DNA from: Hoplostethus atlanticus
Lineage: Eukaryota; Chordata; Actinopteri; Trachichthyiformes; Trachichthyidae
Assembly: GCA_034670405.1 (NCBI GenBank)
Contig: JAXDDX010000018.1
Span: 2,356,501 to 2,420,500, forward strand
DNA: 64,000 nucleotides
Direction of reading: 5' to 3'
Shown: positions 37,462 through 64,000 of the stretch, in pieces
Layout: the number at the start of each line of letters is the position of its first letter
Position numbering within the stretch: position 1 is the stretch's first letter
Program-made: the position numbers and the translations under genes
The notes under the pieces: model-generated
What the model saw: only the letters and a program-made list of their open reading frames with translations
Told to the model about the DNA's origin: nothing
Database searches by the model: none

Positions 37462-40400
37462 TTCTGTTCAGCAGTATGCGGATACGCCAAGTCTTTCTTC
37501 CTGTTATCCTCAAATTTACTAACATCTTTTATCCTTGGGGTCTCACTGATTGGAAAGAAAGATCTTTTTGGTGTTTTAATGGCTTTATGTTGTTTCTGAG
37601 TACAGATTTTTGTTATTTATAACATTTGGAAAGAAAAACAATTCCTGTCATCAAGGATAGTAACATGTATTATTTTGGAAAAACAAACACAATTTCAAAC
37701 ATTTCGAAGGATTTTATTTATAAAACAGAACATCATCATCATCATCAGAACATCAGTAAGGACCACATAACAGTTATTTATTTACAAAAAACACCAATAA
37801 AAATGTAATGTAGGCATTGTGTAGGGATTGTTCTTTGCTACTGTAAGTGCTATGTATGCGAATATGTATGCTATGTATATGTGAGATAGTAAAAAACAAA
37901 GTTACGTAGTCACCAGATTGAGTTTGGCAGAATATGAATAGCATATTATTTTTCCTACAGGCCACCACAAAGTACAGTCCAGCCTTTGTCTACATTACTG
38001 TGCACATGATCTGCAGAGAGTGTGTGCGTGCTCCTTGCAGACATATTTCTTGCATTTCACACACGTGTTGCTGGTCTTGGAGTCATTTCTGTTGGGACCT
38101 GGCCCCTGCCACGTTTCCTGCGTGCTGTTTGAACCACAGGAGTTGAGGTGTGCGTCTCCGTTTGGATGTCCTTCACAACAGCTGCAGCAGCTGTTGATGC
38201 TCTTGGAAGGCACCGTCTTCTCTCGATATGAGGTTTCACCAGCGCGTAACCCAGCTGCTCCAGGAAAATCCTCCTTCGACTCAGTTTTCCGCTGTTCGAG
38301 TCCTTGTTTATTTCGCTCCATATTACAAAGGCATTGTAGGTGCTCATATCAATGACGTTGAAGAAACTAACTAGGGGCCAACGGGCAGTCATGCCTTGGC
38401 AGCTGTATGTGGCTGTGACCTTGTCCAGGTTGTCAACCCCTCCCAATACAATAGGAGACGACAGTGGCTCTGTCAGTGAAGGCAAACATTGAAGATGTTA
38501 CCTTCCTGTTCTTCATCTCAAGAAGCTCAGAGGGAAGCTCTGGCTTGTTTTTTCTTACTGTTCCTAACATGGTAAGCTTCCTTTTCAGCAGTTCCTCACC
38601 CAGGGCGTACAATGTGAAAAAAATGATCACATGTAATGTTATGACCATTCAGTCCTTCGGCCATGTCTAGTACCACCCTCATGCCCTGATTGTTTTCAGG
38701 TGCTTCCCTGGCTGTGCACCACATGCTGCCCATATTTTGATACCGTATTTGGCCGGTTTGCTTGGTATGTATTGTCTGAAGGGACAGCACCCACAAAATG
38801 CAACCAGACATTCATCCACAGTCAGGTGGGGGCCTGGATTGTAAAGAAAGGGTAAAACGTGGAATGTCTTCAGAGGCTGGAAATATTGCCCTTCCAGTGT
38901 CAGCATTCCAAAGGCTTGCTGTTGCTTCGCCTTTTGACTTGTACACTCCTGCCAAAATGAGCAACCCAATGTAGGCTTGCAAGTGGGTCACATCCAAGTC
39001 TTTCGAACTGTCCCCATACACGCGCCTCCCCTCTTTGTCATCTCAAGTATATCCGTTTCTATTGATGGTGTTATGAAGAGCTCAAATCCTGATTTTATGT
39101 CTTGGACATGGCATGCTGGTGGGGCCTGGAACCATTTTGATCACATCGCAGCACTAAGTCTACACAGAATCTGCTGGTGGTTGAGAGACAACAGGGTCAA
39201 CCCCAAGGGTCTCATTCTCATCAGAGGAGGATGCCTCATAATCAGGGTCCTCCTCAACATTATCCTCAGTCTCAGGCTGTCAAAGAGCTGTGACAAAACC
39301 TCATTGACAGAAAACGTCTGCTTAGAGGTCATTTTCAATTGAGAGAAAGCATAAAGAGAGAGGACACAGAGCACCAAGATAAATGGTTTTGAAGGCTGCT
39401 GTGCAAGCCTTTTATATGTTTGCCCCTCCCCCATGTCGTGTGAACTATCAGGAGTTCTCGCACTACTACAGATATGGTTATGTTAGGTTAGGGCCCTAAA
39501 GCATAGGAGTAGTTAATATGGCCTGCCTTATGTCAAAATTTGATTGATGACCCCCATTTGATTGATGACCTGTCAAAGTTGACAGTATTGATTGATATCT
39601 TATCAGTATTAGACAGTTTTGATTGATGACATATAGACCTCCATTTGATCGACAGCCTGTCAGTAATTTGTCAGTTTTGAATGATGCCCTGTGTGATGTG
39701 TCATGTTGTGATCTTTTAATTATTTAATGATCCTAATGTGGAGGTATTCCCGAGGGTGTGGATCGGAGTTGTCATTCATTAGTTGTTTTGATCCGGAACG
39801 GGAGGGCATTGACCATCCGTGTGGCATTGGGGGTTGTGGGACCATCTGTGGGCTATGGAATGTGTTTTTAGGGTTATACTCACTAACTGACCACACGGCA
39901 AACAAGGGGAGGGCATTGGGGTGTTGTGTGACATATGGAAATGCTATGGTCTGTTTTAGTTTTATGTTCATTAACTGACCACACGGCAAACAAGTGGGGC
40001 AATGGAGGGTGTGTGACATTTGGAAATGCTATGGTCTGTTTTAGTTTTATGTTCATTAACTGACCACACGGCAAACAAGGGGGGCAATGGAGGGTGTGTG
40101 ACATTTGGAAATGCTATGGTCTGTTTTAGTTTTATGTTCATTAACTGATCAGTGTCAAACACGGGGCATTGGAGGGTGTGTGACATCTGGAAATGCTATG
40201 GGCTGTTTTAGTTTTATGTTCATTAACTGATCAGTGTCAAACAAAGTGCAATGAGGATCTGTGTGTGACATCTGGAGAGCTATGGGAAAGTGTTTTTGTT
40301 TTATACTCATTAACTGACCACTTGTCAAACAATGGACAACGGGGAGCTATATTTGTTTTATAATCCTTAAGGAAGTCTATTGATCTATGGCAAATGCGGG

Positions 40401-43400
40401 TCTTTGGTGTGTTTAACCCTGATTTGTTCTTTACTAAATAATGAATTTGTCCCAATGACTATCAATCTTTACATCATTGTTGATATACGTAATGGGTATA
40501 GGAAGGCTATTTGGCCATGTTATAATATGACCAAATATATTAGGACATCTAAATTAGAATAATATATAGAGCAGGCCTATATTTCAGATGGACACAACCA
40601 ACAACATAAGAATCTAATGTGAAAAGATAGCTACATTAAACAAGGTTTTGGTGTTTTATAATAATGATTTTGTCACATATGTGAGCGCACACACAGTCAG
40701 AACGAGTGTCTGATGATACCTTAGGACGCACACAGATAGTTATTGACACTGCGTGAGAGATGTCCTTGGGATGGTGGAGCTGTCACGATATGATTTTAAA
40801 TTATATAATGCTCCTATTGAGGAGAAGCTATTTCTGAGTGATAAATGAAGGGTATTTGTCCTGAACAAATTGCGACGCTCGGGGGGTCTAAGTCTGGACT
40901 GTGCGCAAGGCGGGGGGCGAGACGCCAAAGCATCTGGTTTTACGATAGTAATTGAGGATTACCGCCCAGATCACACGTGACATCTCGATCGCTCACCCTT
41001 GCAGATGACGACGGTGTCGGTATGGCGCTGTTTTCCGGGTCTTGGACGGACTTTTCTTCGCTGCACATCTGTGTCAGCCCAAAGTCAGAGCGATCCCAGA
41101 GTGCAATGTCGTCATCAGTCCAGCTGTCCAACTGCAGATTTAAAACTATCCCCGCGGAGGCGCTCGTCTCCTCCTCGCTTACTAAAAAACAAGACACATT
41201 AGATGGTATAGTCCATTAGTCTGTGATTATTATAAAAGGGACAATATAGTTTTAAACATAGGATGTGTCATATGTTAACACTATACCGTTTTCAGATCTT
41301 GTGCGTTTTGCCTTTGGCTCCTGTGTCTCAGCTTCTCCCTCAACAGACGACTTTGAAACGTTATTCACATATTGTTCAAGCTTGTTTAACGCCTCGCCTT
41401 GATGTTCAGTAACAACAAAAGAAAGAACACCATATGAGATTTGCCGTTTATTTTATCATTTCAATTTGAATTTATATCAAATACTTACTAGTGTTTTGAG
41501 GACGCCGTTCTTTAAGGGGTGCGCGGTTTTTTCCTAGAAGACCTAAGAAATGCAGGAGCAAAAATGAAACGTACAACTCATTAGAAAGTTCAACTCATTA
41601 GAAAGAATCCTGGTTTTAAAAATATGCGCCCGAATGTAGAATAAAAACCTACTTTTGTTAGGGTGTTTATGACCGGTACCCACACGGGTATCAGATTTTA
41701 TGTTCCTGGTCTGATCTAATATATTTTGTGCTTCTAGAGAGAAATAGAAACAAAACATAGACAATCGTGTATAGGCGTTACATAGTTTTAAATACGTGGT
41801 AATGCATCTCAATCTAATAAAACACCTGCATAGAATACATTGGATTTACCGTGGCTTGTAGAGGCCTCTGTAAGATCCTCAATTGTGTTGCATTCCCCCC
41901 CTAATCTTCACCAAATCAAAAAGAAAAACATATCGTATTAGTTTTTATCCAACTATGGGATATCGGTTGAATAGAATATGACATAGTTAAATAGAATACT
42001 TACAGTAAACAAACATCTTGTCTAGGTTCGGTCGATTCCGCAGCGTTGAAGCCTGTCTTGCGAAAAAATGGGGCCGTGCAGCGTCTATGCAACGCTGGAC
42101 GCGCTACGGCTGGTCAACATACATCGGCTCCGTGCGCCTTATATCCCCAAAGACGACTCTCACAATTCAGACTTGCGCACTTTCAATTTTAGCGCTCCAA
42201 ATGTCACGTGTGATCTGGGCGGTAATCCTCAATTACTATCGTAAAACCAGATGCTTTGGCGTCTCGCCCCCCGCCTTGCGCACAGTCCAGACTTAGACCC
42301 CCCGATCGTCGCAATTTGTTCAGGACAAATACCCTTCATTTATCACTCAGAAATAGCTTCTCCTCAATAGGAGCATTATATAATTTAAAATCATATCGTG
42401 ACAGCTCCACCATCCCAAGGACATCTCTCACTCAGTGTCAATAACTATCTGTGTGCGTCCTAAGGTATCATCAGACACTCGTTCTGACTGTGTGTGCGCT
42501 CACATATGTGACAAAATCATTATTATAAAACACCAAAACCTTGTTTAATGTAGCTATCTTTTCACATTAGATTCTTATGTTGTTGGTTGTGTCCATCTGA
42601 AATATAGGCCTGCTCTATATATTATTCTAATTTAGATGTCCTAATATATTTGGTCATATTATAACATGGCCAAATAGCCTTCCTATACCCATTACGTATA
42701 TCAACAATGATGTAAAGATTGATAGTCATTGGGACAAATTCATTATTTAGTAAAGAACAAATCAGGGTTAAACACACCAAAGACCCGCATTTGCCATAGA
42801 TCAATAGACTTCCTTAAGGATTATAAAACAAATATAGCTCCCCGTTGTCCATTGTTTGACAAGTGGTCAGTTAATGAGTATAAAACAAAAACACTTTCCC
42901 ATAGCTCTCCAGATGTCACACACAGATCCTCATTGCACTTTGTTTGACACTGATCAGTTAATGAACATAAAACTAAAACAGCCCATAGCATTTCCAGATG
43001 TCACACACCCTCCAATGCCCCGTGTTTGACACTGATCAGTTAATGAACATAAAACTAAAACAGACCATAGCATTTCCAAATGTCACACACCCTCCATTGC
43101 CCCCCTTGTTTGCCGTGTGGTCAGTTAATGAACATAAAACTAAAACAGACCATAGCATTTCCATATGTCCCACACCCTCCATTGCCCCCCTTGTTTACCG
43201 TGTGGTCAGTTAATGAACATAAAACTAAAACAGACCATAGCATTTCCATATGTCCCACACCCTCCATTGCCCCCCCTTGTTTGCCGTGTGGTCAGTTAAT
43301 GAACATAAAACTAAAACAGACCATAGCATTTCCATATGTCACACACCCTCCATTGCCCCCCTTGTTTGCCGTGTGGTCAGTTAATGAACATAAAACTAAA

Positions 43401-46400
43401 ACAGCCCATAGCATTTCCATATGTCACACACCCTCCATTGCCCCCCTTGTTTGCCGTGTGGTCAGTTAATGAACATAAAACTAAAACAGACCATAGCATT
43501 TCCATATGTCACACAACACCCCAATGCCCTCCCCTTGTTTGCCGTGTGGTCAGTTAGTGAGTATAACCCTAAAAACACATTCCATAGCCCACAGATGGTC
43601 CCACAACCCCCAATGCCACACGGATGGTCAATGCCCTCCCGTTCCGGATCAAAACAACTAATGAATGACAACTCCGATCCACACCCTCGGGAATACCTCC
43701 ACATTAGGATCATTAAATAATTAAAAGATCACAACATGACACATCACACAGGGCATCATTCAAAACTGACAAATTACTGACAGGCTGTCGATCAAATGGA
43801 GGTCTATATGTCATCAATCAAAACTGTCTAATACTGATAAGATATCAATCAATACTGTCAACTTTGACAGGTCATCAATCAAATGGGGGTCATCAATCAA
43901 ATTTTGACATAAGGCAGGCCATATTAACTACTCATAGGCATGTTTTTTGAAGATTATAAAATTGCATGTGATAGAGACCTCAGCCAAAACAAATGTGTGT
44001 AAAATGTTAAAGTTTTTTAATGTTTTATACAGCTAAAACAGCCTGGGGTCAAATTGACCCCAAAGAACACCGATGCGTACCAAATGTGCACAGGAAAACA
44101 TATCATCATGTTAATTTTATTTACCCAGTTGTCCCCATTAAATTAGGAAAAGTCATTCAATATGAATAAAAAAAAAAAAGTCAATCATTTATTTAGAGAC
44201 GTTAAACATTGAATGGGGTCAAATTGACCCCGAAGATAATAGGAGGGCTAATTAATCACCAGTTTATTAGTGTGATCTCAGGTCTCTCTGGCTCCCTATT
44301 TGTTCCAGCTGCCTTCATCTCTCCCATGGAGAATGCACAAACAGTTAATAATCATAGGCTACATGGTTGCTAATTAAGGTTAGCAACTGAACCATTAGCA
44401 GAGAATGACTCATAGCATATTACAGACACACACAGAAGTGCTGTTTATTTGCAGTAGCACTGCTTATTAATGTGCTTGTCTGCAATTCAAGATGCAGTTA
44501 TCTGACATCTCGTCAACATGGCAGCAACCCATTGTAAACGTTACACTGCATTAGGCTGCTTTTAATATGTTCATAATCCTCAAAATACACTTGAGTTGAA
44601 TTTTCAAGCATTGCATGACATTAACTCTATCAAAGTACCTGTATGGTAAATTGTTACACATATACATTATATACATACACATATAAATCACTGACATGGG
44701 CAAAGAAAATCTTGCAGAATCCATGTTTCTTCCCTGTTTTTTTCTGAGCTGGACCATTGGAAGGAACAGGCACAGGAGGTTGTAATTACGACCTACCAAT
44801 TGGGAATTTACGCTTCCCGACCTCTCCGATTCCGACTGACATGCAGTGTTTTGCAAGTTTTACCATCGTGTATTTAAAGCATCTTGCATGAGGTAACACA
44901 CCGATCAGCACCTCTTGAAAATCAAACATCTAACATCTGGCATCATCCGAAACAAACGCCATATTGAAATGATTCACTGCTGAAAGGTATTGTGTCAGAT
45001 TTTATGCTATTCCACTTTACTTTACTGTAATTGATACCATTGTTATGACCCTGTAAAATGCTTTCACAGAGAGACTATAAATTGCAATCGTTGCCAACAA
45101 TAGTGGCTTTGAAAGTTGCAATGTCAGCAGTACGATGTCTCTATGTGCAGTTAGTTGTCAAAAAAACAACCTATTTGGGTACAGTGATGAGTCAACATGC
45201 ATTGTTGATATCAACAAAATACTTTTTATGTTATTCTAACCACTATATAGTAATGCAACCCTATTTACTTTTTTTCATGCTGGTTATCACCAATTAAAAA
45301 ATGGTAATTTTAGTTGATGATTATTTGATGTATCTGCTAAGGACATTTAGATTAATCCGATTGTTTTTTTTCTTTCACTTTTTGAGCGCTACTCCAAAAC
45401 CATGACGGCAACTTTTACCTATACCTGCACATTTTTCAAAGGCTATTAGCATTAAGATTGCTGGAGATATTTCAATTTGTGTTCATCTCCTTGGTAAGCT
45501 CAGTATCACCTTGTCCTTCATAATGGGCTGTGAGAAATGTGATTGGACAAGCGTGAAGAGGGAGACAGATCTGTGGAGCGACGGATCTCAGCTCAGGGTA
45601 ATTAATAACTGCTACAGCGTTGGCTCTGCCAGCGATGGCAGACTGATGGATGCCTCTATAACATTAGCAGCACTCTTGACACTGGGACATGATTACATGT
45701 CTGTTTCAATGTTTGTAGGGGTGGAAGGTGAGCACATCACTTTTGTCATCCATCTCAATCCGCTATGTGTAAGAATATGTGCAGCACACGAATGGATTAA
45801 AAGAAAGAAGAGTGTCCATTAAACAGATATTTTGCGACCCTTTAACAATGGGGTCGAGGAATATGGTGTCAAATTAAAACATCGACATCAACTGCGTGCA
45901 TGGGCATAATAATGATGCAATTCAATTAAACATGGCACATACACATTTTCATGGCTAACCCCAAGGCACAGTTTCCTTTCTGTTGGAAATTGTTATTGCC
46001 AAGAGACGTTTTGTTTGAAATTATTGAAATTCCGGCATAATAAATTTCAAGTGTTGCTTAAATCCCTCCAGGTAGAGAGGAGGTTGGAAACGCACCAAAC
46101 TACGTGAGGAAGGGAAGTAATGAAATATGCAGATAGAATTCAGCTCATAAAATCTATTGAATCGTGTACAGATGGTTAGTTCATTTGACAATGGTATGTC
46201 GAGAAATATCTACCATCTAGCCTTGACATATGGACAGCAGAAAGTGTTTTGAATGCACTGATTGTAAAGCCGTCATGGGGGGTCGCTGGATAACTTGTGA
46301 AAGACTGTGATTGTATACTGTATCCAAGCCCCATGTCCTGGCTCTGCACCAAATCATTGCCTTTTAAAGAAAGATCAATAGTGTTTCTGGGGAAGCGGTT

Positions 46401-49400: not shown

Positions 49401-51861
49401 AAGTTAGCCGGCTCCTATAATGTCTCTACAATAACGTGTTTGCATTGTTTTAACCTAAGCTACTGCGGGTCCAATTACGTTGCCTGTTCTATTGTTCACA
49501 CATTCTCAGTAGTTTAAAACTTTTAGTCTGATCCTCAAAGTGGCTACACTAATGAGGTAGAACAGCGTGGTTATTAGACAGGGGAAGAAGGTTGTTTAAT
49601 AGCTTCCATTACAGACTTGGTTAGCTCAATCCATCATCCAAGAGAACTCCATCCCATCTAACACCATTTGTTTGAAAACGGAGACAGGACAACAATGCAA
49701 AGCAAGTCCAAGAACATTGATCTTACTGTGCTGGAATCACAGGCCCTTTGAAAACCGCAACAGAGGCTATTCCTCTTCCAACTATCACATTACAGGCCCT
49801 CTATGATGTTCAACTGATCAGCAACATTTCCATTTGTCAAAGTCTTTGCAGTAGCTGTGGAGACGAAGTTCTACTACACGGAGATATTAATTACTGTAGT
49901 ATTGCAGACGTGTCTCTCTCTGCATTTGAAGATGTACTTTTAAACTGCAATTAATTAAAAGAGCTGGAGTTGCGTGTTTGTACACAAAGTGGGAGGTTGG
50001 TTATAAACTATTCCTGCTTGATTCCACATTGAGAGAGAGAGAGAGAGAGATTGATTTCATTTCATTCATATCTTTTGTTTCAATCTTGCTGATGAAGTGA
50101 GGGAAAATGGAGTTGCATTTAGGCTGATAACATGGCCATACTGTGTCAGTGTGATTTTCTTGCCAGGGTTTGATTCAGAGTGTGTCCTCCCCCAAAGTTG
50201 AAATAAAAGTTTTCATATGTCAATCATTAAAGTATTGCATTCCAGTTTCAAGGGATTTTTTGGCTAGAGCTGCCTTGAAAATTGCATGAAAAAATTGGAA
50301 TTATACTTAAATGGAAAAATTATTTTGTTAATAAAACTAACAATTTTCCTTCCTTCCTTCCTTCCTTCCTTCCTTCCTTCCTTTATCCTTTTCCTTCTCA
50401 CCAGCCTTTGTGCTGAGCTGTGCTTTCCCCAAAGAGCCTGCTGGTGGAGAAGTGTCCGTGACTCACCTGCATGCTGACGGAGAAGCCTACTTCCGCTGTT
50501 TCACTGGCTACAGGTTGCAAGGCCCCAAAATGCTTACCTGTCGCAACGCCACCACGCCTTACTGGAGTGGGAAGGAGCCGAGATGTGTGGGTAAGAAGTG
50601 TGGGTTCCCAGACAAAGCTGCTCCCTGACAAACATGTTAGCTAATCAACACTGGTAGCTGCGTACTCTCAATTCGGAGTAATGAAGTGGCCTCTTCAGAG
50701 CGCACGGAGAGCGCAATTGAACCATGACAACAACAACAAAATAGCTCAAGAATGAATCGTACGTAGCATAAATTGACGCTCTCTCATTGGTCTCCCCTTA
50801 CCTAAAGGTTAATTGGGATTTACTGAATGTTCGCTGCAGTATAAAGTACCTGTTTTTTTGAGATTCATTTTTTTTTTTTACTCATTTAGAATCTAGTAGC
50901 TAACACTTTTGCAATTGGATCAAGTTCAATTAAACACCGTTATTCCAGGAATCTTTGTGAAATAACTTCACGATACTGCATTATTATTCAACTGGCCAGA
51001 AACTGTTTTTAATAACAAATGATGTGCAATATAATAGCTACTTAAGGTATAGAGGTATATCTTCAGCCTCCCTTCAAACACACAGGTGGTCTCAAGCTTT
51101 GTAAAGGCTTTCACTATGTCGTCTCCTCCTCTGAATTGATTAGTAACACTCCAAGGCCAAATGAATGTGTCTGCATGTGATTAGCAGCGCAGGGAGCTAT
51201 TCTTTGGAGACAGGGCAAAGCAAGGCCAGTGGACCTGGCTGCCTTAATTAGAACTGGGCTGCATGACCGTCCTTCTCCTGCTGGTAAAGGCTCATCTGCC
51301 AGTCCCAGCCTTTCTCCCTGCCTGCCTGCAGCTGCTCTGCACTGATAGTGTTACTGCCGCTGCTTTGCTATTCTCCTTACAAGTCCATCACACGTAGTCA
51401 CACACACTTAGACCCAGGTGAGCCACCTGCTGTAGCCCAGCTCCAGTCCATTGGATATTGATGCAATCTATGCTCAGACAGGGACAGAGACTTATCTCCA
51501 AAACCCCTATCATAATCAGTGTCATTACTTTTCTCATTCAATCCCACCCCTCAGCTCCTTTCTCTGTGTCTCCCTCTCATTGCTCTCTCTCTCTCTCTCT
51601 CCGCTCATCTAGCATCCTGCGGAGGCATGATAAAAAATGCAACCTATGGCCGTATTGTTACTCCCGGTTTCCCTGGAAACTACAGCAACAATCTGACGTG
51701 CCATTGGGTCCTGGAGGCCCCAGAGGGCCACCAGCTTCACATTCACTTTGAGAAGGTGGCTTTGGCAGAGGACGATGACAGGTGGAGTATGCACTCTGCT
51801 AAAATCAAGCAGACAATGAGAGGAAGAGTGTGTGGGAGTGGGGATATTTGCCTGTGTGTAT

Positions 51862-51895
<34 letters not shown>

Positions 51896-54345
51896 TGGGT
51901 CTATATAGTGGAAACGAGACATCACTTTTTTGCTAATTAGATTCCATTCTCTCCAGAATATGCAAAGCCAACAGCTGATAGATGACACCAGACTTTAAAC
52001 TCAATTTCACCGAATAACAAAATGGGCAAAACCTTTAGGGATTGACACATGAAACTGAAAGGGCATTTTATCATTATTTAAAACAGTATTTTATCACGCA
52101 AATTAAGGGGCTACCAAGGCTTTCCGTAACTACTAATCCTTATCAGTCATTGCCTCACCAGTTACCTCGCTAGTGGCTGAGAATGACAACACAAGGTTAC
52201 TCCAGCCACCGATGGAACAGCGAGCAACTCTCAGATAGCCTGAAACTTCCTTTTTATACTCTCTTAGTTCCCAAGACTCTCTTCGTCCTCTAGTATTTAA
52301 TCTGTCTTCTATCTGTGTATTTCAGGCTGCTGATTAAGAATGGGAACAACATAGACTCTCCTCCTGTGTATGACTCATATGAGGTGGAGTACTTGCCTAA
52401 TGAGGGTGTGCTCAGTACTGGACGCTACCTGTTTGTAGAGTTCACTACAGATGGGACAGTCACCTCCACTGGTGCAGCCATCAGATACGAAGGTATATTC
52501 CTGCAGTTTCAGATTGTGTAACATATTTGCACGTGTCTTCATAATCACATAGAGTAATTGTGATAATATATAGTTATGTATCCAGTCACTTATGTTTCAT
52601 GTCATGCATTTTTGTGTGCCAAGCCTTTGCAAAAGGGATGTGCTATGAGCCCTTTGTGAAGTACGGCAACTTCAGCAGCAGTGACTCCGCCTACAGCGTG
52701 GGTGCAGTGGTTGAATTCTCCTGTGACCCAGGGTACACACTGGAACAAGGCTCTGTCGTGATCGAGTGTGTGGATGTGCAAAACCCACAGTGGAATGAAA
52801 CTGAGCCAGCCTGCAGGGGTGAGTCAACAGATTTCATTTGCTTGAGTAATTCTGGGACATAAAGTCTTTTCAAAAATGTATTTGCACTAGAGGAGAACAT
52901 ACAACCAGATATGCCTGATTAGGAAGACCCTTTCATTGTCTGCTTGATCATTGTAAGAGTCAGTGAAACTTTTTTTTATTCAAATAACATAGACCACTGG
53001 CAGCTAAATGTATCCTCCTATAAGCTGCTTTCCTCTGATCCTTGATAACTTTCCACTTAGAATTATAATAATGACGTACTTTTGTCTGTGTGCTTGCAGG
53101 GCAGATTTCAGTAGTGCTGCAGATTAGAGGCATAAAATAGTTGGCCTAGAAGGAACATTGCCCACTGCAAAGACTATGCACCAGACTGTATAGCCCTCTA
53201 CCCCTTCGCCTTGGCCTCTCTTTTCCTTTCTCTTTCTGTCTCTCAATTTGTCTGCCTCTCCCTCTCTGGTCTTCCCACACACTGCACACTGGCATTACTC
53301 CTATTCTTTGTTGCCTGTGCATGGTGCTTCCACCACACAGCCAAGTTGAAAAACGTTCCAGTAAAGCTAGATATCAGAAAATGTCATTTCTGCTCCTCTG
53401 AGTCATGGTCACCAAGCTATTCATTGGTACAAGGTTTATAAAAAAGGATCCTGGAAAGTTGATTTCCGTTGTTTTATTAAGAGCTACGACTGAACATGGT
53501 TACAGCCTATGAATCCCTACTGTACTCCAAGTATAGGTCATTTTTATTTTTATTTATTCCTTATGTTACCTGTGTATGTGCACACTTTTGCATTTATTTA
53601 CTTTGCAGGATTATTTACGTTATATGTTAGACTAAAATCGACTGTCTTTTGAAATCAGTTACAATGCATGTATTTGTTCCTCAGTCTCAACCTGGTGCGC
53701 CTGTGTGTGTTACAGCTGTGTGCAGTGGGGAGATCACAGACTCCGCCGGTGTGGTGCTGTCTCCCAATTGGCCCGAGGCCTATGACAAGGGGCAGGACTG
53801 CATCTGGGGCATCCACGTGGAAGAGGACAAGAGGATCATGCTAGACATCCAAGTGTAAGAGACTGCACTCAGGTGTGAGGCTAGACGGGGGAGGTCACCG
53901 TGGAGGTCAGCTTTACCTCCAGATGCTTAACGCTGTCCCTCCTGCACATAGAGAGAGACACAAACATGCACACTCTTTGTCTCTTTCTGGTTCTTTCTCT
54001 CTCACCCAGACGCGCCACTACATGCACAGGGGGAAGTGTTTCTGTGGTTGCAGTCACTAATTAGATTTTTTTTCATCCACTACATTAAGAATTCTGTGTT
54101 GCTTCCAGTTCGCTCTCTGACCAGATTAGCCAGTAAGCCTCTATGCTCCCCCTTCCCTGGTGTGTGTCTCAGAGTTGGCTTTGAAATGAATATGCTCTGG
54201 CAGTGAACTACTCCCAGCCACTTATCCAGCCTTCTCAACAGTAATTCAACACAGACATACACAGAAGTGAAAATACACACATCCACACATAAATACAGGG
54301 GCAATCTCTTTCTCCCTCTTTCACCCACTGTTCACACATGAATGG

Positions 54346-61183: not shown

Positions 61184-62920
61184 AGTTTTTTTCAAATTGT
61201 TGTCACACCTATGTATTCTCCTAATACTCAGTCTGAATTGTTTTGGTCTTTTAACAACTAATACCAGATATTAACTCAACAAAACTATTGCCTAGTGTTG
61301 TAGTGTGGTAGAAGCAACAAATGGTTTATTGTGTCAAGTAAAGAGGTGTAAACACACATAAACTCATACATCCTCATGACAGCCGGAAAGCAGGATGTGA
61401 TCACAATTGTGGTTGAAAGGAATTGGAAATGTGATTTCTTTTTTTTTTTGGCATCACAATCTGGAATTGACATTGAAATGTGCAAACGGAGGGAGAATGA
61501 TTGGGAGATGTGTTTCCTAATAACCATTTCAAATCGGCCCTTGGCACCTGAGACTCAGTCACGTAACGAGATGCAGAGTAAATATGCTGGGCAGCCGACA
61601 GGTGATTGATAGCTACAAGAACTTTGCCTCTTTCCCGTGGCATGTTTGGAGAATGGTGCTCTCCTTTTTTATCACTTTCATGTGCTCTCCAACGCAGCCT
61701 GTGAATATTGACACAAGACAATCATAACAGAGATCTGCTCAGCTATTTTGACACCTGCCTTAAGGCACATAAAGAACAATGGCAGAGCTCTCCCTGTATC
61801 ACTGTTATATCAGCAGGGAACTACAACTTTCACGGCTTATTATTTTTCCCTCCATTCTCCCTCGCCCGTCGCTGAATAAATGTCAAGCTTTACTCTTGCT
61901 CTGTAAAGAGGCTAAGGACTTATGAATCTGTAAATGGAAAGGTTAATGCATTCTTAAATTAATCAGTGACAGACTCCATCAGACTGTGGCTTTTTCTAGT
62001 GCGCTGCCTTTAATTCTATTTTTCACACATAAATAATGCAATGGACGAGGCAATAGTTACATACTTAGATTATTCTATATTTACTTACTTATCTAAGGCC
62101 TTTCCTCCTCCAGTATAATGCAATATTTAGCTCCATAATCCTCATTGACAGGCATTGTGTTTTTGTCGGCGTAGAAGTAATCCAGAAGAAGGTGTGGCAA
62201 CTTTACCAATATCATGACTGTCTCCCTTCTCTAATAGTATGAAGTAATAGTAATATTTCTCTAATAGTGGACATTATTTCAGCCTCTTATTTACTCATGG
62301 AACTGAGTTAGCTAAAATAAAAAAAAGAAGCAATAAACAATAAGAGTTCCTTATTGTGCTCTCATATTTGTAAATATACATTTCAGTACATATTCATGAG
62401 AGCAATGTGGGAGCGAAGAGAAATAAATGCTGAATTATTTAGTGTTTATTTCACATCAGATCCATCCAATATAAACAGAATTGAAATGTACCAAGTGCTG
62501 ACGTTGCCTTGTGTGTTATTGCTCATTATCCAAAAAAAAAAAAAAAAGGTCACTTAGCTCTGAAAGCTCTTTATGAAAAATACACACCGCAGACACATAG
62601 CATTCTGCATAGCTCCACTCTGCATGAAAGTCTCCATATCATCAGTACTATTGGATGTATTCACCCATTCTTTATTATGTAAAGGCATATGTAACTGTGC
62701 TTGGTGTGTCTTGTTCCTCCTAGTCTCCATGTGGGTAAGAATGACCTTCTGACCTTCTACGATGGTGACGACCTGACGGCCAACATCCTGGGCCAGTACA
62801 GCGGCACAAAGCCCCACTTCAAGCTCTATACCTCCATGGCTGATGTCACCATCCAGTTTCAGTCGGATCCTGCCACCAACATCTACGGCTACAACAATGG
62901 ATTTGTGGCCCACTTCTTTG
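18009..62920 (+). CDS. sez6: SEZ6 (seizure-related 6), central part, nine exons
   Basis: SEZ6 is a neuronal type I transmembrane protein with a Thr-rich N-terminal region, three CUB and five sushi (CCP) domains, implicated in dendrite branching and synapse balance. Visible exons: 18009-18720, 19218-19339, 34944-35136, 50405-50590, 51613-51781, 52326-52492, 52624-52818, 53716-53854 and 62724-62920, giving Thr-rich region, CUB1, sushi1, CUB2, sushi2 and CUB3. All introns are GT-AG and junction phases agree except exon 2 to 3. The choice of SEZ6 over SEZ6L rests on remembered family sequence: the CUB2 motif NYSNNLTCHW, EDDDR followed by PPVYDSYEVEYLP, CYEPFVKYGNFSS, AVCSGEITDSAGVVLSPNWPE and FTSMADVTIQFQSDP all fit SEZ6. 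Signal peptide, last three sushi domains, membrane segment and tail are outside the window. Fish may carry duplicates (sez6a/sez6b); I cannot say which this is. Confidence 0.95.
18721..19217 (+). other. sez6 intron 2 (497 bp)
   Basis: GT-AG intron, GTAGGT donor and CTCTTCCAG acceptor. No further feature seen. Confidence 0.8.
19218..19339 (+). CDS. sez6: sez6 exon 3: first half of CUB1
   Basis: A 122-base exon with acceptor TCTCTTCCAG and donor CAG|GTCAGT. It encodes LCSLNFTDPEGNIE, then VECNYLVTVYLGYGIEVQ. The two cysteines are the expected first disulphide pair of a CUB domain. Asn-Phe-Thr is a possible N-glycosylation site. The exon needs one base from upstream and ends in phase 0, which joins correctly to exon 4. 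It is a few residues shorter than the human counterpart between the two cysteines. Confidence 0.93.
19984..20063. repeat. CA/TG-rich imperfect repeat
   Basis: Eighty bases of alternating purine-pyrimidine sequence (CACACGCACGTGTGCATG type), degenerate rather than a pure dinucleotide run. Such alternation can adopt left-handed DNA. Confidence 0.7.
21402..22221. mobile_element. hAT-type MITE, about 820 bp, with 8-bp target duplication
   Basis: The left end reads TAGAGTTGGGTATCG and the right end reads, reverse complemented, TAGGGTTGGGTATCC, so the termini are inverted repeats. Directly outside are GCTGTCAC (21,394-21,401) and GCTGTCAT (22,222-22,229), an 8-base direct duplication with one mismatch. 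Eight-base duplications and TAG-starting short inverted ends fit the hAT superfamily. No transposase is encoded. Inside, a segment ending AGAAAATAAAGTGCAATT is duplicated (around 21,655 and 21,710). Confidence 0.82.
23064..23122 (+). mobile_element. Retroelement 3'-tail-like fragment, copy 1
   Basis: The stretch GGGAGTTTTTCCTTGTCC...GGGTCCAAGGTTGGGGGGTGTCG resembles the conserved 3' region of an abundant fish LINE/SINE family, as I recall it. A related copy lies at 55,701-55,815. No coding part is attached. Confidence 0.5.
23722..23758. repeat. (TTATG)n microsatellite
   Basis: Seven or so copies of the pentamer TTATG, with one interruption (TTCATG). Confidence 0.9.
24121..24642. mobile_element. 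Tc1/mariner-like MITE, copy 1
   Basis: The left end begins CAGTGGGGTCCAAAAG after a TA, and the right end carries CTTTTGGACCC, its reverse complement. This end sequence is of the type found in Tc1/mariner-derived fish MITEs. The interior is AT-rich and non-coding. A second, inverted and partial copy is present at 61,043-61,310, sharing the TCTGGTATTAGTT...AAAAGACCAAAACAATTC block and the right end. Confidence 0.65.
24775..25803. mobile_element. Inverted-repeat element, about 1.03 kb, ~70-bp ends
   Basis: The segment at 24,775-24,850 (a T/G run, GGAAGCTTCCCCTGC, GACACACCTGCTA, a T run, CATGACC) is matched in reverse complement by 25,733-25,803 with few changes. The ends hold the palindrome GGGGAAGCTTCCCC. 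This is the layout of a non-autonomous DNA transposon. No target duplication is clear and the interior has no recognisable transposase. The interior includes GC-rich GGTAGGGGCGGGTAGGGG at about 25,350. Confidence 0.7.
30824..30850. repeat. (GT)n microsatellite
   Basis: GT dinucleotide tract with one C interruption, followed by GA-rich sequence. Confidence 0.85.
34944..35136 (+). CDS. sez6: sez6 exon 4: second half of CUB1
   Basis: A 193-base exon with acceptor TGTATTCTCAG and donor G|GTGAGC. It encodes VLNVSVLEGEQVTLEDTGG, then ILANESVLMRGLVVRSWSNQ and ISIRFRSDHQPNSGSVLLHYEG. The strand pattern is that of the C-terminal half of a CUB domain (ANES...I-V-F-S...G-F-H-Y-). NVS and NES are possible N-glycosylation sites. 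Starts in phase 0, ends in phase 1. Confidence 0.93.
36026..36060. repeat. (TTA)n microsatellite
   Basis: About eleven copies of the TTA trinucleotide. Confidence 0.9.
36347..36369. repeat. (CT)n microsatellite
   Basis: About eleven CT dinucleotides. Confidence 0.9.
37338..37465. repeat. (CTAT/CTGT)n tetranucleotide repeat
   Basis: About 128 bases of CTAT units passing into CTGT units with scattered CTTT and ATGT variants. The gradient from one unit to the other suggests point mutation followed by expansion. Confidence 0.9.
37995..39332 (-). pseudogene. piggyBac-type transposase, decayed
   Basis: Read on the minus strand from ATG at 39,332 to a stop at 37,995. The start gives MTSKQTFSVNEVLSQLFDS; an acidic segment then continues in another frame and meets stops. 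Core blocks follow: DLDVTHLQAYIGLLILAGVY, KSKGEATASLWNADTGRAIF, YNPGPHLTVDECL, CPFRQYIPSKPAKYGIKIWA, LLKRKLTMLGTVRKNKPELP, GGVDNLDKVTATYSCQG. The end is a Cys-rich CVKCKKYVCKEH...CRSC finger, as in the C-terminal domain of piggyBac transposases. Several internal segments are missing (after GRAIF, after IKIWA, after EGLNGHN, before GGVDN), removing parts of the DDE/DDD catalytic core, and frameshifts separate the blocks. It cannot encode an active enzyme. This family cuts and pastes at TTAA sites. Confidence 0.9.
39408..39417 (-). promoter_or_regulatory. TATA box of the piggyBac transposase
   Basis: ATATAAAAGG on the minus strand, about 76 bases before the transposase ATG at 39,332. Position and sequence suit a core promoter. 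The large inverted-repeat element is inserted about 90 bases further upstream. Confidence 0.6.
39539..39692 (+). repeat. Subterminal TTTGATTGATGAC motif cluster (left)
   Basis: Near-identical copies at 39,539, 39,557 and 39,618, with weaker variants at about 39,587 (ATTGATTGAT), 39,643 (TTTGATCGAC) and 39,677 (TTTGAATGATG). The same cluster is mirrored in the right arm at about 43,748-43,902. Repeated subterminal motifs are commonly binding sites for a transposase or other element protein; that role is inferred. Confidence 0.65.
39839..40340 (+). repeat. ~84-bp tandem repeat, left arm, about 6 units
   Basis: Each unit contains GACATNTGGAAATGCTATGG, then TTTTAGTTTTATGTTCATTA, then ACTGACCACACGGCAAACAA and a GGGGCAATGG segment. 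The outermost and innermost units are the most diverged, with central units nearly identical, the usual picture for a tandem array under unequal exchange. Units begin near 39,929, 40,014, 40,098, 40,182 and 40,266, plus one degenerate unit before. Confidence 0.9.
40940..42016 (-). CDS. Six-exon gene of unknown function inside the inverted-repeat element
   Basis: Minus-strand coding exons: 42016-42004, 41900-41850, 41733-41653, 41542-41489, 41397-41287, 41181-40940. All five introns are GT-AG and all interrupt the frame in phase 1. Lengths 13, 51, 81, 54, 111 and 242 sum to 552 bases, that is 183 codons plus TAA. The start ATG is preceded by a TATA box. The product is hydrophilic: ECNTIEDLTEAS near the start, basic LKERRP in the middle, a likely nuclear signal PKAKRTR near residue 100, then an acidic-aromatic stretch LQLDSWTDDDIALWDRSDFG. 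No family is recognised; a nuclear regulatory protein is only a guess. The last 44 bases lie inside the left arm. A strong alternative donor (AGG|GTGAGC) near 40,990 could splice to a further exon in the arm. The exon-5 acceptor is the weakest call. Confidence 0.72.
42138..42146 (-). promoter_or_regulatory. TATA box of the inverted-repeat element gene
   Basis: GGATATAAG on the minus strand, about 120 bases upstream of the ATG at 42,016. A CACGTG E-box (42,205-42,210) lies about 60 bases further upstream, exactly at the inner edge of the right arm. Spacing fits an RNA polymerase II core promoter with a short 5' leader. Confidence 0.6.
42201..43933 (-). repeat. Right inverted arm (1,733 bp)
   Basis: Reverse complement of the left arm, longer by 256 bases, which is three tandem-repeat units. 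Its inner end forms the upstream part of the element gene's promoter region, while the same sequence in the left arm supplies the gene's last codons. The arm therefore also holds an inverted, non-expressed copy of the gene's 3' end. Confidence 0.92.
42849..43602 (-). repeat. ~84-bp tandem repeat, right arm, about 9 units
   Basis: Same unit as in the left arm, inverted. Units recur near 42,912, 42,996, 43,080, 43,165, 43,251, 43,336, 43,421 and 43,506 with spacings of 84-86. Because the unit length is often not a multiple of three and stop codons are rare in some frames, the array gives spurious open frames rich in Cys-Pro and His; these are not genes. Confidence 0.9.
50031..50050. repeat. (GA)n microsatellite
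   Basis: Ten GA dinucleotides. Confidence 0.9.
50347..50383. repeat. (CTTC)n microsatellite abutting the exon 5 acceptor
   Basis: About nine copies of the TTCC/CTTC tetramer, followed by TTTATCCTTTTCCTTCTCACCAG. The repeat extends the polypyrimidine tract of the sez6 exon 5 acceptor, which ends at 50,404. Confidence 0.92.
50405..50590 (+). CDS. sez6: sez6 exon 5: sushi (CCP) domain 1
   Basis: A 186-base exon, acceptor CTTCTCACCAG, donor G|GTAAGA, phase 1 at both ends as usual for one-exon sushi modules. It encodes AFVLSCAFPKEPAGGEVSV, then GEAYFRCFTGYRLQGPKMLTC and WSGKEPRCVG. The four cysteines (SC, RC, TC, RC) and the conserved Trp before the last cysteine are all present. NAT is a possible glycosylation site. 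Confidence 0.95.
50591..51612 (+). other. sez6 intron 5 (1.0 kb)
   Basis: GT-AG intron between sushi1 and CUB2. It ends in a (CT)n run at 51,583-51,600 that supplies the polypyrimidine tract of the next acceptor. No other feature seen. Confidence 0.85.
51583..51600. repeat. (CT)n tract before exon 6
   Basis: Nine CT dinucleotides, thirteen bases before the acceptor AG at 51,611-51,612. Confidence 0.9.
51613..51781 (+). CDS. sez6: sez6 exon 6: first half of CUB2
   Basis: A 169-base exon, acceptor CGCTCATCTAG, donor CAG|GTGGAG. It encodes ASCGGMIKNATYGRIVTPGF, then PGNYSNNLTCHWVLEAPEGH and LHIHFEKVALAEDDD. This has the canonical CUB start CGG, the P-x-P/GFPGNY motif and the C-x-W core, plus NAT, NYS and NLT sites. 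It ends in phase 2 and joins exon 7 to give an Arg. The donor is weaker than the others (GTGGAG), but the reading frame across the junction fits the family. Confidence 0.95.
51782..52325 (+). other. sez6 intron 6 (544 bp)
   Basis: Splits CUB2. Contains a (GT)n microsatellite about 80 bases after the donor. Acceptor TGTGTATTTCAG. Confidence 0.85.
51863..51892. repeat. (GT)n microsatellite in intron 6
   Basis: About fifteen GT dinucleotides close to the weak exon 6 donor. Confidence 0.9.
52326..52492 (+). CDS. sez6: sez6 exon 7: second half of CUB2
   Basis: A 167-base exon ending G|GTATAT. It encodes LLIKNGNNIDSPPVYDSYEV, EYLPNEGVLSTGRYLFVEFT and TDGTVTSTGAAIRYEG. The PPVYDSYEVEYLP block is strongly SEZ6-like. 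Starts in phase 2 and ends in phase 1. Confidence 0.95.
52624..52818 (+). CDS. sez6: sez6 exon 8: sushi domain 2
   Basis: A 195-base exon, only 131 bases after exon 7, acceptor TTTGTGTGCCAAG, donor G|GTGAGT, phase 1 at both ends. It encodes CYEPFVKYGNFSSSDSAYS, VGAVVEFSCDPGYTLEQGS, VVIECVDVQNPQWNETEPAC. Four cysteines and the conserved Trp are in place; NFS and NET are possible glycosylation sites. Confidence 0.95.
52819..53715 (+). other. sez6 intron 8 (897 bp)
   Basis: GT-AG intron between sushi2 and CUB3, acceptor GTGTGTGTTACAG. Contains a CT-rich segment near 53,215-53,275 and no other feature. Confidence 0.85.
53716..53854 (+). CDS. sez6: sez6 exon 9: first half of CUB3
   Basis: A 139-base exon, donor GT|GTAAGA. 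It encodes VCSGEITDSAGVVLSPNWPE, AYDKGQDCIWGIHVEEDKRI and MLDIQ. This is the highly conserved CUB3 start with its cysteine pair and the C-I-W core. Phase 1 in, phase 2 out. Confidence 0.95.
54346..54399. repeat. (AC)n microsatellite, about 27 units
   Basis: The longest pure dinucleotide tract in the window. Confidence 0.95.
55701..55815 (+). mobile_element. Retroelement 3'-tail-like fragment, copy 2
   Basis: Contains CAAGGTTTCTTCCAAGG, TTTTCCTTGTCC, GGGTCCAAGGTTGAGGGGTG and GGGCTATACAAATACATTTG in the order found in an abundant fish retroelement 3' tail, as I recall it. It shares the middle block with 23,064-23,122. Confidence 0.6.
56195..56219. repeat. (GT)n microsatellite
   Basis: About twelve GT dinucleotides. 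Confidence 0.9.
57031..57623. mobile_element. MITE with TACAGTTTTTCTCAGT ends
   Basis: The left end TACAGTTTTTCTCAGTCGCT is matched in reverse complement by AGCAACTGAGAAAAACTGTA at the right. The ends start with TA, as for Tc1/mariner-type elements. The interior is non-coding with repeated TTTGCAAA-type words. Confidence 0.7.
57624..58035. mobile_element. Second, tandem MITE copy (right half)
   Basis: Ends at GCTAGAAAAACTGTA, related to the right end of the preceding element. Its internal words follow the same order (a GTGCCAAAGCATTTGCAA block, then GTGCACAAATGA, then TTTGAGAATTTCA). It appears to be a diverged second copy whose left end is missing or overlapped. Confidence 0.5.
58110..59850 (-). 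mobile_element. L2-like LINE remnant (reverse transcriptase fragments)
   Basis: Minus-strand translation gives, in broken frames, LDQSGFKA, then STGVPQGLVLGL and HHYSYDTQLYL followed by HHLKLNHSKTEML, and further on blocks resembling the region after the polymerase domain (QTFSQRGV, IIHTECCSL). These correspond to the QSGFR, GVPQGSVLGP, YADDTQLYL and LNxxKTE motifs of L2/CR1-clade LINE reverse transcriptases. The catalytic YADD is altered to YSYD. Frameshifts and stops show it is dead. Endpoints are approximate. Confidence 0.82.
61043..61310. mobile_element. Tc1/mariner-like MITE, copy 2, partial
   Basis: Begins CAGTGGGATCCAAGAG and shares, inverted, ACTAATAC...TTTTACTC...TGATACTTCTT and GAATTGTTTTGGTCTTTTAAC with the element at 24,121-24,642. 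It is interrupted by the (GATA)n tract. Confidence 0.6.
61115..61183. repeat. (GATA)n microsatellite, about 17 units
   Basis: A 69-base uninterrupted tetranucleotide tract lying inside the second Tc1-like MITE copy. Confidence 0.95.
62724..62920 (+). CDS. sez6: sez6 exon 10: second half of CUB3
   Basis: A 197-base exon, acceptor TTGTTCCTCCTAG, donor G|GTGAGG. It encodes LHVGKNDLLTFYDGDDLTAN, ILGQYSGTKPHFKLYTSMAD and VTIQFQSDPATN, then YNNGFVAHFFG. The LTFYDGDD and TIQFQSDP blocks are CUB calcium-site-like and strand motifs conserved in SEZ6. Phase 2 in, phase 1 out, so a sushi exon is expected next; none is seen before 64,000. Confidence 0.95.
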
Positions 62921-64000
62921 GTGAGGCTCTGGTTTTTGCTAACATATTGGGGTTTTTTTTTAGCTTTGATTGTGATTGTGATGTGATTTTCCTGAAAGAT
63001 TCTCTCTATTTTCCTTTTCAGCTCAGAAAATGTACTAAAAGAAAACTATTTTGATCACAATCAGAAGCTGGATTATAGGGAAAAAAACAATAACAGAATT
63101 TGGAATATGTTATTCCTATGATCTTGGTAATTCCAGTCAAAGCTCTAATATCATCAAGCACCACATTCTGGAGTCGCTCCACTGACAGGTCCTGAAAGGC
63201 TGACTTTGTGGACTCAATAGAGTGGAGTGTTTGAGCTTCTAAAGCCAAATGTGTGTGTTATGTACTAAGAACCAGTTAGTGTACCATACCCTTGGTGAAT
63301 CACAGTGTTCACATCGGTCTTCTATTAGTTGAGCAGCTTCAGGAAGTGCTGTTTGATAGCATCACACATTAAACTGCTTGCCGTCTTCATTCAAGCTTCG
63401 AGAGCGACGCGTTCACAGTCACGTTATAAATCATGACTTAACTGTGCAAGATCAGGAGAATAATATATGTGGACTTTCCTTTCAAAAGACAGACTGAAAC
63501 AACAAACCTCTGCTAGAACTTAGTGAGAGGGAGAAAAGACTAACGAGTGTGGAATACAAAATGTTAGTCATGCACAGAAGCCAGCAGGCTCCCAGTTGGA
63601 AAAGCACAGCTTTATCTCTCTCTGTCTGTCTTCTGAATTAGCCCAGGTGCACAGGATTAGACAACAACAAACACAGAAACATAATAATAGGCTACATTTC
63701 CACATCAGCTGGAAAGGCCTAGTGCTTTGTGTGCTTGGCCATGTGTGCTGCAGTTACAGAAAGGCGGATCGGCCAGTGCCAAACCACATGCTGCGTTCCT
63801 CTTGGCAAACATCACAGGCTTCTCTCCCTTCTAATTTACATTTTTCTCCTCAAGCACCATTATTTAATACATATAGAGAACAGACTAGAATCTGGTTCAT
63901 TCCCTGCAGAGGAAGCTGTTGTGTATTATCATGAGATAGTAATAAGTCCCTTAGAGTCTGGATCCAGCGGGATAAAGTTAAAGTTTAAAAGTTCTTCACA
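62921..64000 (+). other. sez6 intron 10, incomplete
   Basis: Starts with GTGAGG and runs to the window edge. I see no sushi-type exon and no transposon signature. Confidence 0.75.

Follow-up and report, generated by a model that had tools for sequence, protein, structure and literature searches.

The window analysed here, a stretch of 64,000 nucleotides from Hoplostethus atlanticus (GCA_034670405.1, contig JAXDDX010000018.1, C18:2356501-2420500), contains a 4.4-kb element in which two long inverted arms enclose a single small spliced gene, and it raises the question of which family such a structure belongs to and how it was formed. Comparison with the whole assembly (632.8 Mb in 1,161 contigs, the contig with the window measuring 5.7 Mb) indicates that the element is a non-autonomous derivative of the Maverick/Polinton family. 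It is probably a snap-back, defective-interfering-like derivative of a Maverick resident in this genome, generated by a template switch during protein-primed replication and integrated by the integrase of its parent.

The element has 4,425 bp and consists of two inverted arms around a single-copy spacer of about 1.2 kb, confirming the architecture of the original prediction, in which arms of 1.5-1.7 kb flanked a spliced gene. Its features, in window positions, are the following:

38682..38987, minus strand: piggyBac-type repeat fragment adjoining the insertion (Pfam DDE_Tnp_1_7, E 8.6e-9)
39502..39507, plus strand: left target-site duplication, CATAGG (one CATAGG in 6/6 paralogous empty sites)
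39508..40983, plus strand: left arm, an inverted copy of Maverick end A, with the outer ~300-370 bp corresponding to the terminal inverted repeat (TIR) of near relatives, then the 85-bp array, then unique sequence
39866..40331, plus strand: 85-bp tandem array of the left arm (Tandem Repeats Finder, TRF; 6 units by motif count)
40978..40983, minus strand: rearrangement join, a 6-nt microhomology (ATGTCA on the minus strand) common to the gene and the inner arm end (23 rows from 17 loci)
40984..42200, minus strand: single-copy spacer (loop) with the spliced gene (alignments)
42201..42206, plus strand: second parental copy of ATGTCA, at the inner end of the right arm (alignment)
42201..43932, minus strand: right arm, Maverick end A joined to the gene as in the parents (alignment to parents)
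42954..43574, minus strand: 85-bp tandem array of the right arm (range given by TRF; motif count of 9 units, with the innermost outside this range)
43933..43938, plus strand: right target-site duplication, CATAGG (flank comparison)

Aligned as reverse complements, the arms (1,476 and 1,732 bp) show four mismatches and one 256-nt gap, and the inverted repeats detected in them (1,069 and 651 nt, 99% identity) are far above chance. The gap represents three array units (core motifs counted six times in the left arm and nine in the right). Minor corrections are also due to the period of the array, which is 85 instead of about 84 bp according to TRF, and to the bounds 39507..43933, whose outermost G and C belong to the target-site duplication, so that the element itself runs from 39508 to 43932. 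On their inner side, the arms end with TGACAT/ATGTCA, the site of the rearrangement join. The suspected youth of the element was borne out by an arm divergence of 4/1,476 aligned bases, about 0.27% outside the array gap. Assuming about 1e-8 neutral substitutions per site per year, the age would be of the order of 0.1 million years, a rough value because conversion, assembly errors and turnover of the array all affect it. By motif count, the 12 end-A arrays compared contain between 2 and 9 units of ~85 bp, and such fast turnover could date copies or reflect slippage.

Regarding the family, the view that no known transposon family combines such arms, array and gene did not hold, since the ends are those described for vertebrate Mavericks. 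Intact vertebrate Mavericks mostly end in 5'-(AGT)2//(ACT)2-3', measure 12,723-24,620 bp, have terminal repeats of 46-1,447 bp and in most cases carry accessory regions beside the core modules, and vertebrate Maverick target duplications have 6 bp (PMC8097293). The window element has in common with them its AGTAGT...ACTACT termini, the 6-bp duplication and terminal inverted repeats, and its termini are also those of polymerase B/integrase elements in the same genome. It differs from them in size (4.4 vs 12.7-24.6 kb), in the absence of core genes and in its arms of 1.48-1.73 kb, compared with 46-1,447 bp for the reported terminal repeats (PMC8097293), and moreover in that both of its ends correspond to one parental end. 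The gene set of an autonomous Maverick (polymerase B, ATPase, integrase, and capsid genes) was not found in the element, where the longest stop-to-stop frame has 132 aa and lies in the array (the search against families covered the spliced protein), and everything inward of the accessory gene has been removed by the join. On its sequence, we assign the element to Maverick/Polinton as a non-autonomous derivative, and its long arms are an inverted duplication of one Maverick end, not the usual terminal repeats of these elements.

A search of the genome with the outer 300 bp of the element returned 53 rows with at least 40 near-full ends, including the two of the window, a lower bound because the 40 best of 259 candidates were scored. 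Copies with the same ends in other flanks, suggested before as the mark of a mobile family, therefore do exist, but the whole 4.4-kb layout was found once. Foldback and Galileo elements also have long, internally repetitive inverted arms, and their likeness to the arms with tandem units described here could suggest an unrelated fold-back transposon family of Foldback, Galileo or Mutator type. Such an affiliation is hardly credible, considering that the 6-bp duplication and the AGTAGT ends are common to the ~15-kb polymerase B/integrase elements, that those families have transposases of their own and longer target duplications (9 bp in Foldback), unlike the 6 bp seen here, and that in the parents the arm makes up one end only. 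By Repbase naming convention, the name Polinton-1N1_DR denotes a non-autonomous Polinton. This name appears in PMC9341505, and its likeness to the window element is one of name, apart from any comparison of structure. Among the literature matches listed on palindromic, snap-back or non-autonomous Polintons, which included PMC6431247 and PMC9341505 and had Repbase and most subscription papers outside their scope, none named a palindromic Maverick.

The insertion site provides further evidence on the integrity of the element. The duplication CATAGG flanks it on both sides, and the ATAG copies once interpreted as a 4-bp duplication are the inside of this 6-bp one. The left flank is a piggyBac-type repeat, and all six other genomic places with a match extending to the insertion point (from 15 rows) continue across it uninterrupted, with a single CATAGG. 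The duplication and these empty sites bear out the proposed insertion as a unit, and the element appears to have entered the chromosome in one piece. An assembly artefact, caused by a fold-back read or a path switch in a repeat, has to be considered because suspect palindromes exist in this assembly, namely C972, a 15.1-kb contig that is palindromic including its host flanks, and C1095, an 11.7-kb contig whose sequence is 92% palindromic, nearly loopless and noisy in one of its arms; both are likely fold-back read artefacts and were dropped as independent snap-backs. For the window element, this explanation is very unlikely, since it lies in a 5.7-Mb contig with unlike flanks, matching duplications and an empty site in paralogs, and its arms differ by four bases and three array units around a single-copy loop of 1.2 kb. 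Besides, a fold-back read would duplicate the flank too, and a path switch in the TIR would not bring the 3' end of the gene beside an arm.

The same genome harbors candidate parents of the element. Twelve contigs carry two such ends in inverted orientation: nine pairs combine two different ends, A and B, with about 14-20 kb between them (C576, C509, C369, C333, C359, C120, C133, C283, and C407), two are A-A pairs with unlike flanks (the window and C311), one is an A-A pair with palindromic flanks (the suspect C972), and none is B-B. Matching 6-bp duplications were observed in eight of the nine A-B pairs, the exception being C359. End A matches the window arm over its full length, with variation in array length, and continues into the spacer with the spliced gene wherever the stretch is long enough, whereas the match of end B to the arm is limited to the outermost 303-362 bp (399 in copies with an internal repeat). 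In a direct comparison within each parent, the two ends have 303-371 bp in common in 7/9 pairs and 582-583 bp in C283 and C407. Long polymerase open reading frames (ORFs) lie inward of the gene at C405, C333, C509, and C576, interrupted in C405 and C576, and the one in C333 matches Pfam DNA_pol_B_2 (4.8e-41). The next ORF in C405 showed a weak packaging-ATPase-like match (Pox_A32, 2.7e-4, below the cut-off) and no relative among IMG/VR viral contigs. An integrase was found on side B in C333, the sole copy examined there (rve 9.4e-12, Chromo 1.4e-8). The ORF adjoining it had no match in Pfam and one chance-level match in PDB (E 0.65), and PHROGs gave no convincing match for this ORF or for the ATPase-like one. 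Judging from their ends and these genes, the ~15-kb relatives can be classed as Mavericks.

Some of these copies present irregularities of their own. The two ends of C359:21555-36657 carry unlike duplications, GTTGTG and TCTGAA, and the latter is also found beside the end at C556:37246, so that a misjoin of two Mavericks in the assembly is possible. The Maverick ends at C509:36304 and C100:544928, on different contigs, have an identical 20-bp host flank and cores of different quality, which reads as a haplotig or assembly duplication, and C407 and C895 likewise share a flank. In C747:1-8000, long ORFs that resemble by eye a gag-pol retroelement occur just inward of the spliced gene, apparently the result of an insertion into this Maverick copy.

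In relation to these parents, the layout of the window element is A-gene-A', with an inverted end A replacing end B and most of the body. In a minus-strand alignment, the parental gene (23 rows, 17 loci) diverges from the window past the join; most parental rows read ...GAGATGTCA and then TTGTGTTGATC, at the point where the window changes to CGTGTGATCTGGG, which is the innermost part of end A in reverse complement. The motif ATGTCA is present at the join in 15/17 parental loci (C747 has ACGTCA and the diverged C120 has GTGTCT) as well as at the inner arm end, and constitutes a 6-nt microhomology of the kind that marks a template switch, even though a chance overlap of such length is possible. 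When 181 bp over the join were compared with the genome, this sequence was intact only in the window, and the other 39 of the 40 scored matches (the best 40 of 182 candidates) were one-sided. Outside the array, the window arms differ from each other at 0/371 and 2/670 positions, whereas the nearest of ten other ends, that of C359, differs from the window arm at 3/370 positions plus one gap and at 3/670; the window gene is separated from that of C359 by one indel in 1,026 nt. As the arms are closer to each other than to the ten other ends, one of them must be a recent copy of the other. Recombination of two nearby Mavericks in opposite orientation, deleting what lay between their inner parts, would also leave A ends on both sides, but the matching CATAGG requires one insertion event and, together with the empty site and the closeness of the two arms, makes this course of events highly improbable.

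The spliced gene lies on the minus strand and has six exons and five GT-AG introns, all in the same phase as read by eye. Exons 1 to 5 below are based on the gene model and the comparison of loci, and exon 6 on the alignment and the comparison of loci:

42134..42148, minus strand: putative TATA-like promoter stretch upstream of the gene, GGGGATATAAGGCGC (by eye)
42004..42016, minus strand: coding part of exon 1, with the ATG
41850..41900, minus strand: exon 2
41653..41733, minus strand: exon 3
41489..41542, minus strand: exon 4
41287..41397, minus strand: exon 5
40940..41181, minus strand: exon 6, cut by the join and entering the left arm, with the stop at 40940

The predicted six-exon model is supported by the GT/AG borders of the five introns and by the conservation of all ten splice dinucleotides in 17 of 19 distinct loci, the window included, but it describes a truncated copy. 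The parental reading frame runs past the join position, and in the window a short tail encoded by the left arm takes the place of the last segment, giving a protein of 183 aa vs 241 aa in the C509 copy; the lost C-terminal segment looks helical and coiled-coil-like by eye. The single small gene of the earlier description is a truncated Maverick accessory gene and not independent cargo. The 19 loci correspond to BLAST rows starting at most 3 nt from the ATG and reaching base 1,000 of 1,026, with broken-up loci such as C100 not counted, and the frame is open in 15 of them (broken in C333, C283, C120, and C369). Altogether, the gene search of the genome gave at least 41 rows, at least 36 of them nearly full length, among the best 40 of 136 candidates. 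No homologs of the accessory protein were found at E <= 1 for the 183-aa window form (75 candidates) or at E <= 10 for the 241-aa C509 form (356 candidates); its only Pfam match was CR6_interact (E 0.058, 13.5 bits vs a cut-off of 29.5), there was no match in PDB, and the last exon of the C405 copy had none in Pfam. The genes of intact Maverick elements were reported without introns (PMC8097293), which makes a multi-intron accessory gene unusual.

A series of steps can be proposed for the formation of the element. A parent of about 15 kb would be copied outside the chromosome by protein-primed, strand-displacing replication, as suggested by the polymerase of the relatives, with the polymerase or the displaced strand entering from end A. 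Protein-primed polymerases displace single strands that are able to fold back. At ATGTCA inside the accessory gene, synthesis would change templates to the complementary strand, at the inner limit of the end-A region, during replication and before integration, and copying would then run back out to the terminus to give A-gene-A', and the window element indeed has both ends from one parental end and an asymmetric loop, as a snap-back molecule does. An adenovirus-like jumping-back start is also expected for Mavericks (PMC8097293). The product would bear an origin-bearing Maverick terminus at each end and would have lost the polymerase, the ATPase-like gene, the integrase, and the capsid module (presumed in the parent, capsid genes not having been searched for), while the loop would keep the promoter-proximal, C-terminally truncated accessory gene. 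Finally, the parent integrase, acting in trans on the AGTAGT...ACTACT ends, would insert this product into the piggyBac-type repeat and create the CATAGG duplication.

A second A-A' lineage was found that carries other DNA, designated X. In C311, end A is present on both sides between unlike flanks with the duplication CTCGGT, and the arms, 97.3-99.9% identical, run from end A through about 160 bp ending in the 5' untranslated region (5'UTR) of the gene just before the ATG, to X and then to a loop of 724 nt. No ORF of 120 aa was detected in X of C311, and the source of X was not found. A 1.5-kb piece of X gave 41 rows (21/21 candidates scored) in 12 places including C311, besides short fragments on C227 and C94; X occurs as inverted pairs in C311, C253, C245, C147, C216, and C161 (the last with a second, diverged pair) and in one orientation in C3, C46, C1, C911, and C320. 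The same A-5'UTR-X join is seen on the left side of C253 and C147 (98.5 and 97.7% identity to C311), both of which have a family end on each side and duplications of their own, TACCTT in C253 and AACACT in C147, the latter read by eye next to the end motif AGTAGTAATATATG; in C245 the outer left arm is truncated. X-type palindromes are therefore present at three loci with three different 6-bp duplications. The possibility that X is a plain transposon inserted in a Maverick was rejected, since the palindrome includes end A and the 5'UTR (C311 shows both parts at either end, C253 and C147 at the left one) and has its own duplications at the three loci, which indicates that X behaves as part of the element. 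Moreover, the X-type elements and the window element have different joins, which means that the A-A' layout has originated two or more times, and the different flanks and duplications of C311, C253, and C147 indicate that molecules of the X type did integrate as A-A'.

Some considerations weigh against a replicative origin followed by integration. The element could have been rearranged in place, with an A-B Maverick at CATAGG suffering a later break, a microhomology-mediated switch into its own end A, and a homologous TIR exchange that replaced end B and the body. Such a course would yield an identical join, microhomology, and duplication, and the 303-583 bp common to ends A and B would permit the second exchange; we consider it unlikely, as it requires two coordinated events at one locus and as the X-type elements did integrate as A-A'. 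Furthermore, the join was found once among the scored matches, and any movement of the window element after its formation would accordingly be hypothetical; the difference of three array units implies that the arms are no longer exactly as copied. Purifying selection on the accessory gene was not seen in a chosen set of 14 intact copies (nonsynonymous divergence, pN, 0.0255; synonymous, pS, 0.0261; intron, 0.0258), and the equal divergence of exons and introns reveals no visible constraint on the protein; these copies were retained from the 19 loci after dropping C1095 (intact, in a suspect contig), C333, C283, C120, and C369, which biases the sample to intact frames. Additionally, the whole evidence base is one assembly of one species, interpreted from its nucleotides. 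Taken together, a template switch in a replicating Maverick, with later integration of the product, is still the origin we regard as probable.

A broader proposal is more doubtful and is put forward tentatively. Having retained the end-A region and the replication ends of a helper, snap-back genomes might be copied and integrated, and perhaps packaged, by it, and could found lineages of satellites of vertebrate Mavericks. The X-type elements (A - 5'UTR - X - X' - 5'UTR' - A') might represent one such lineage with other DNA, and the window element a newly formed snap-back with a truncated regulator that might affect the helper. End A might owe a privileged role to a signal for packaging or regulation, possibly the 85-bp array itself, much like the left end of adenovirus, where the packaging signal consists of repeats beside one end (PMC5033970, PMC12090768). 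The presence of end A in all A-A' cases is consistent with a cis signal there, in small numbers, with two unlike-flank pairs in the unbiased count.

Apart from the element, CUB-domain exons were identified in the window at 51516-51908 and 62695-63054, both on the plus strand (Pfam 1.9e-9 and 1.2e-4), the first of which had cubilin as its best PDB match (7.3e-18). Both stretches possibly belong to a single large gene with CUB repeats, located towards the right side of the window.

These results add a multi-intron accessory gene to a class of elements in which intact members are reported to lack introns (PMC8097293), and they suggest a route by which Maverick-type elements may gain long arms and other cargo. 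Snap-back genomes are expected from protein-primed replication, and their integration with 6-bp duplications would provide indirect evidence for extrachromosomal replication of this kind, as well as for the action of the integrase in trans on minimal ends, the window element representing a natural minimal substrate of two ends and a loop. To our knowledge, adenovirus-like extrachromosomal replication of vertebrate Mavericks has been deduced mainly from gene content.

Viral genomes offer two comparisons, and the window element fits the picture given by viral snap-back genomes and the packaging repeats of adenovirus, having two copies of one end, an adjoining repeat array, and a promoter-proximal piece of one gene in its loop. 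In adenovirus, which replicates by protein priming, left-end symmetric defective genomes with one end duplicated in inverted orientation were reportedly described by Daniell in 1976; unlike the window element, defective adenovirus genomes are not known to be integrated with a target duplication. Adeno-associated virus (AAV), on the other hand, replicates by a rolling hairpin and not by protein priming. The snap-back genomes (SBG) of AAV keep a promoter and part of the rep gene and may be asymmetric with a loop, and template switching has been proposed for AAV genomes of non-unit length (PMC8235507). The AAV 5'-SBG resembles the window element in the inverted duplication of one viral end, the loop, and the retention of a promoter with a partial regulatory gene, and differs from it in that the former is found in packaged particles, whereas the latter is a chromosomal insertion with the gene in the loop and not in the arms (PMC8235507).

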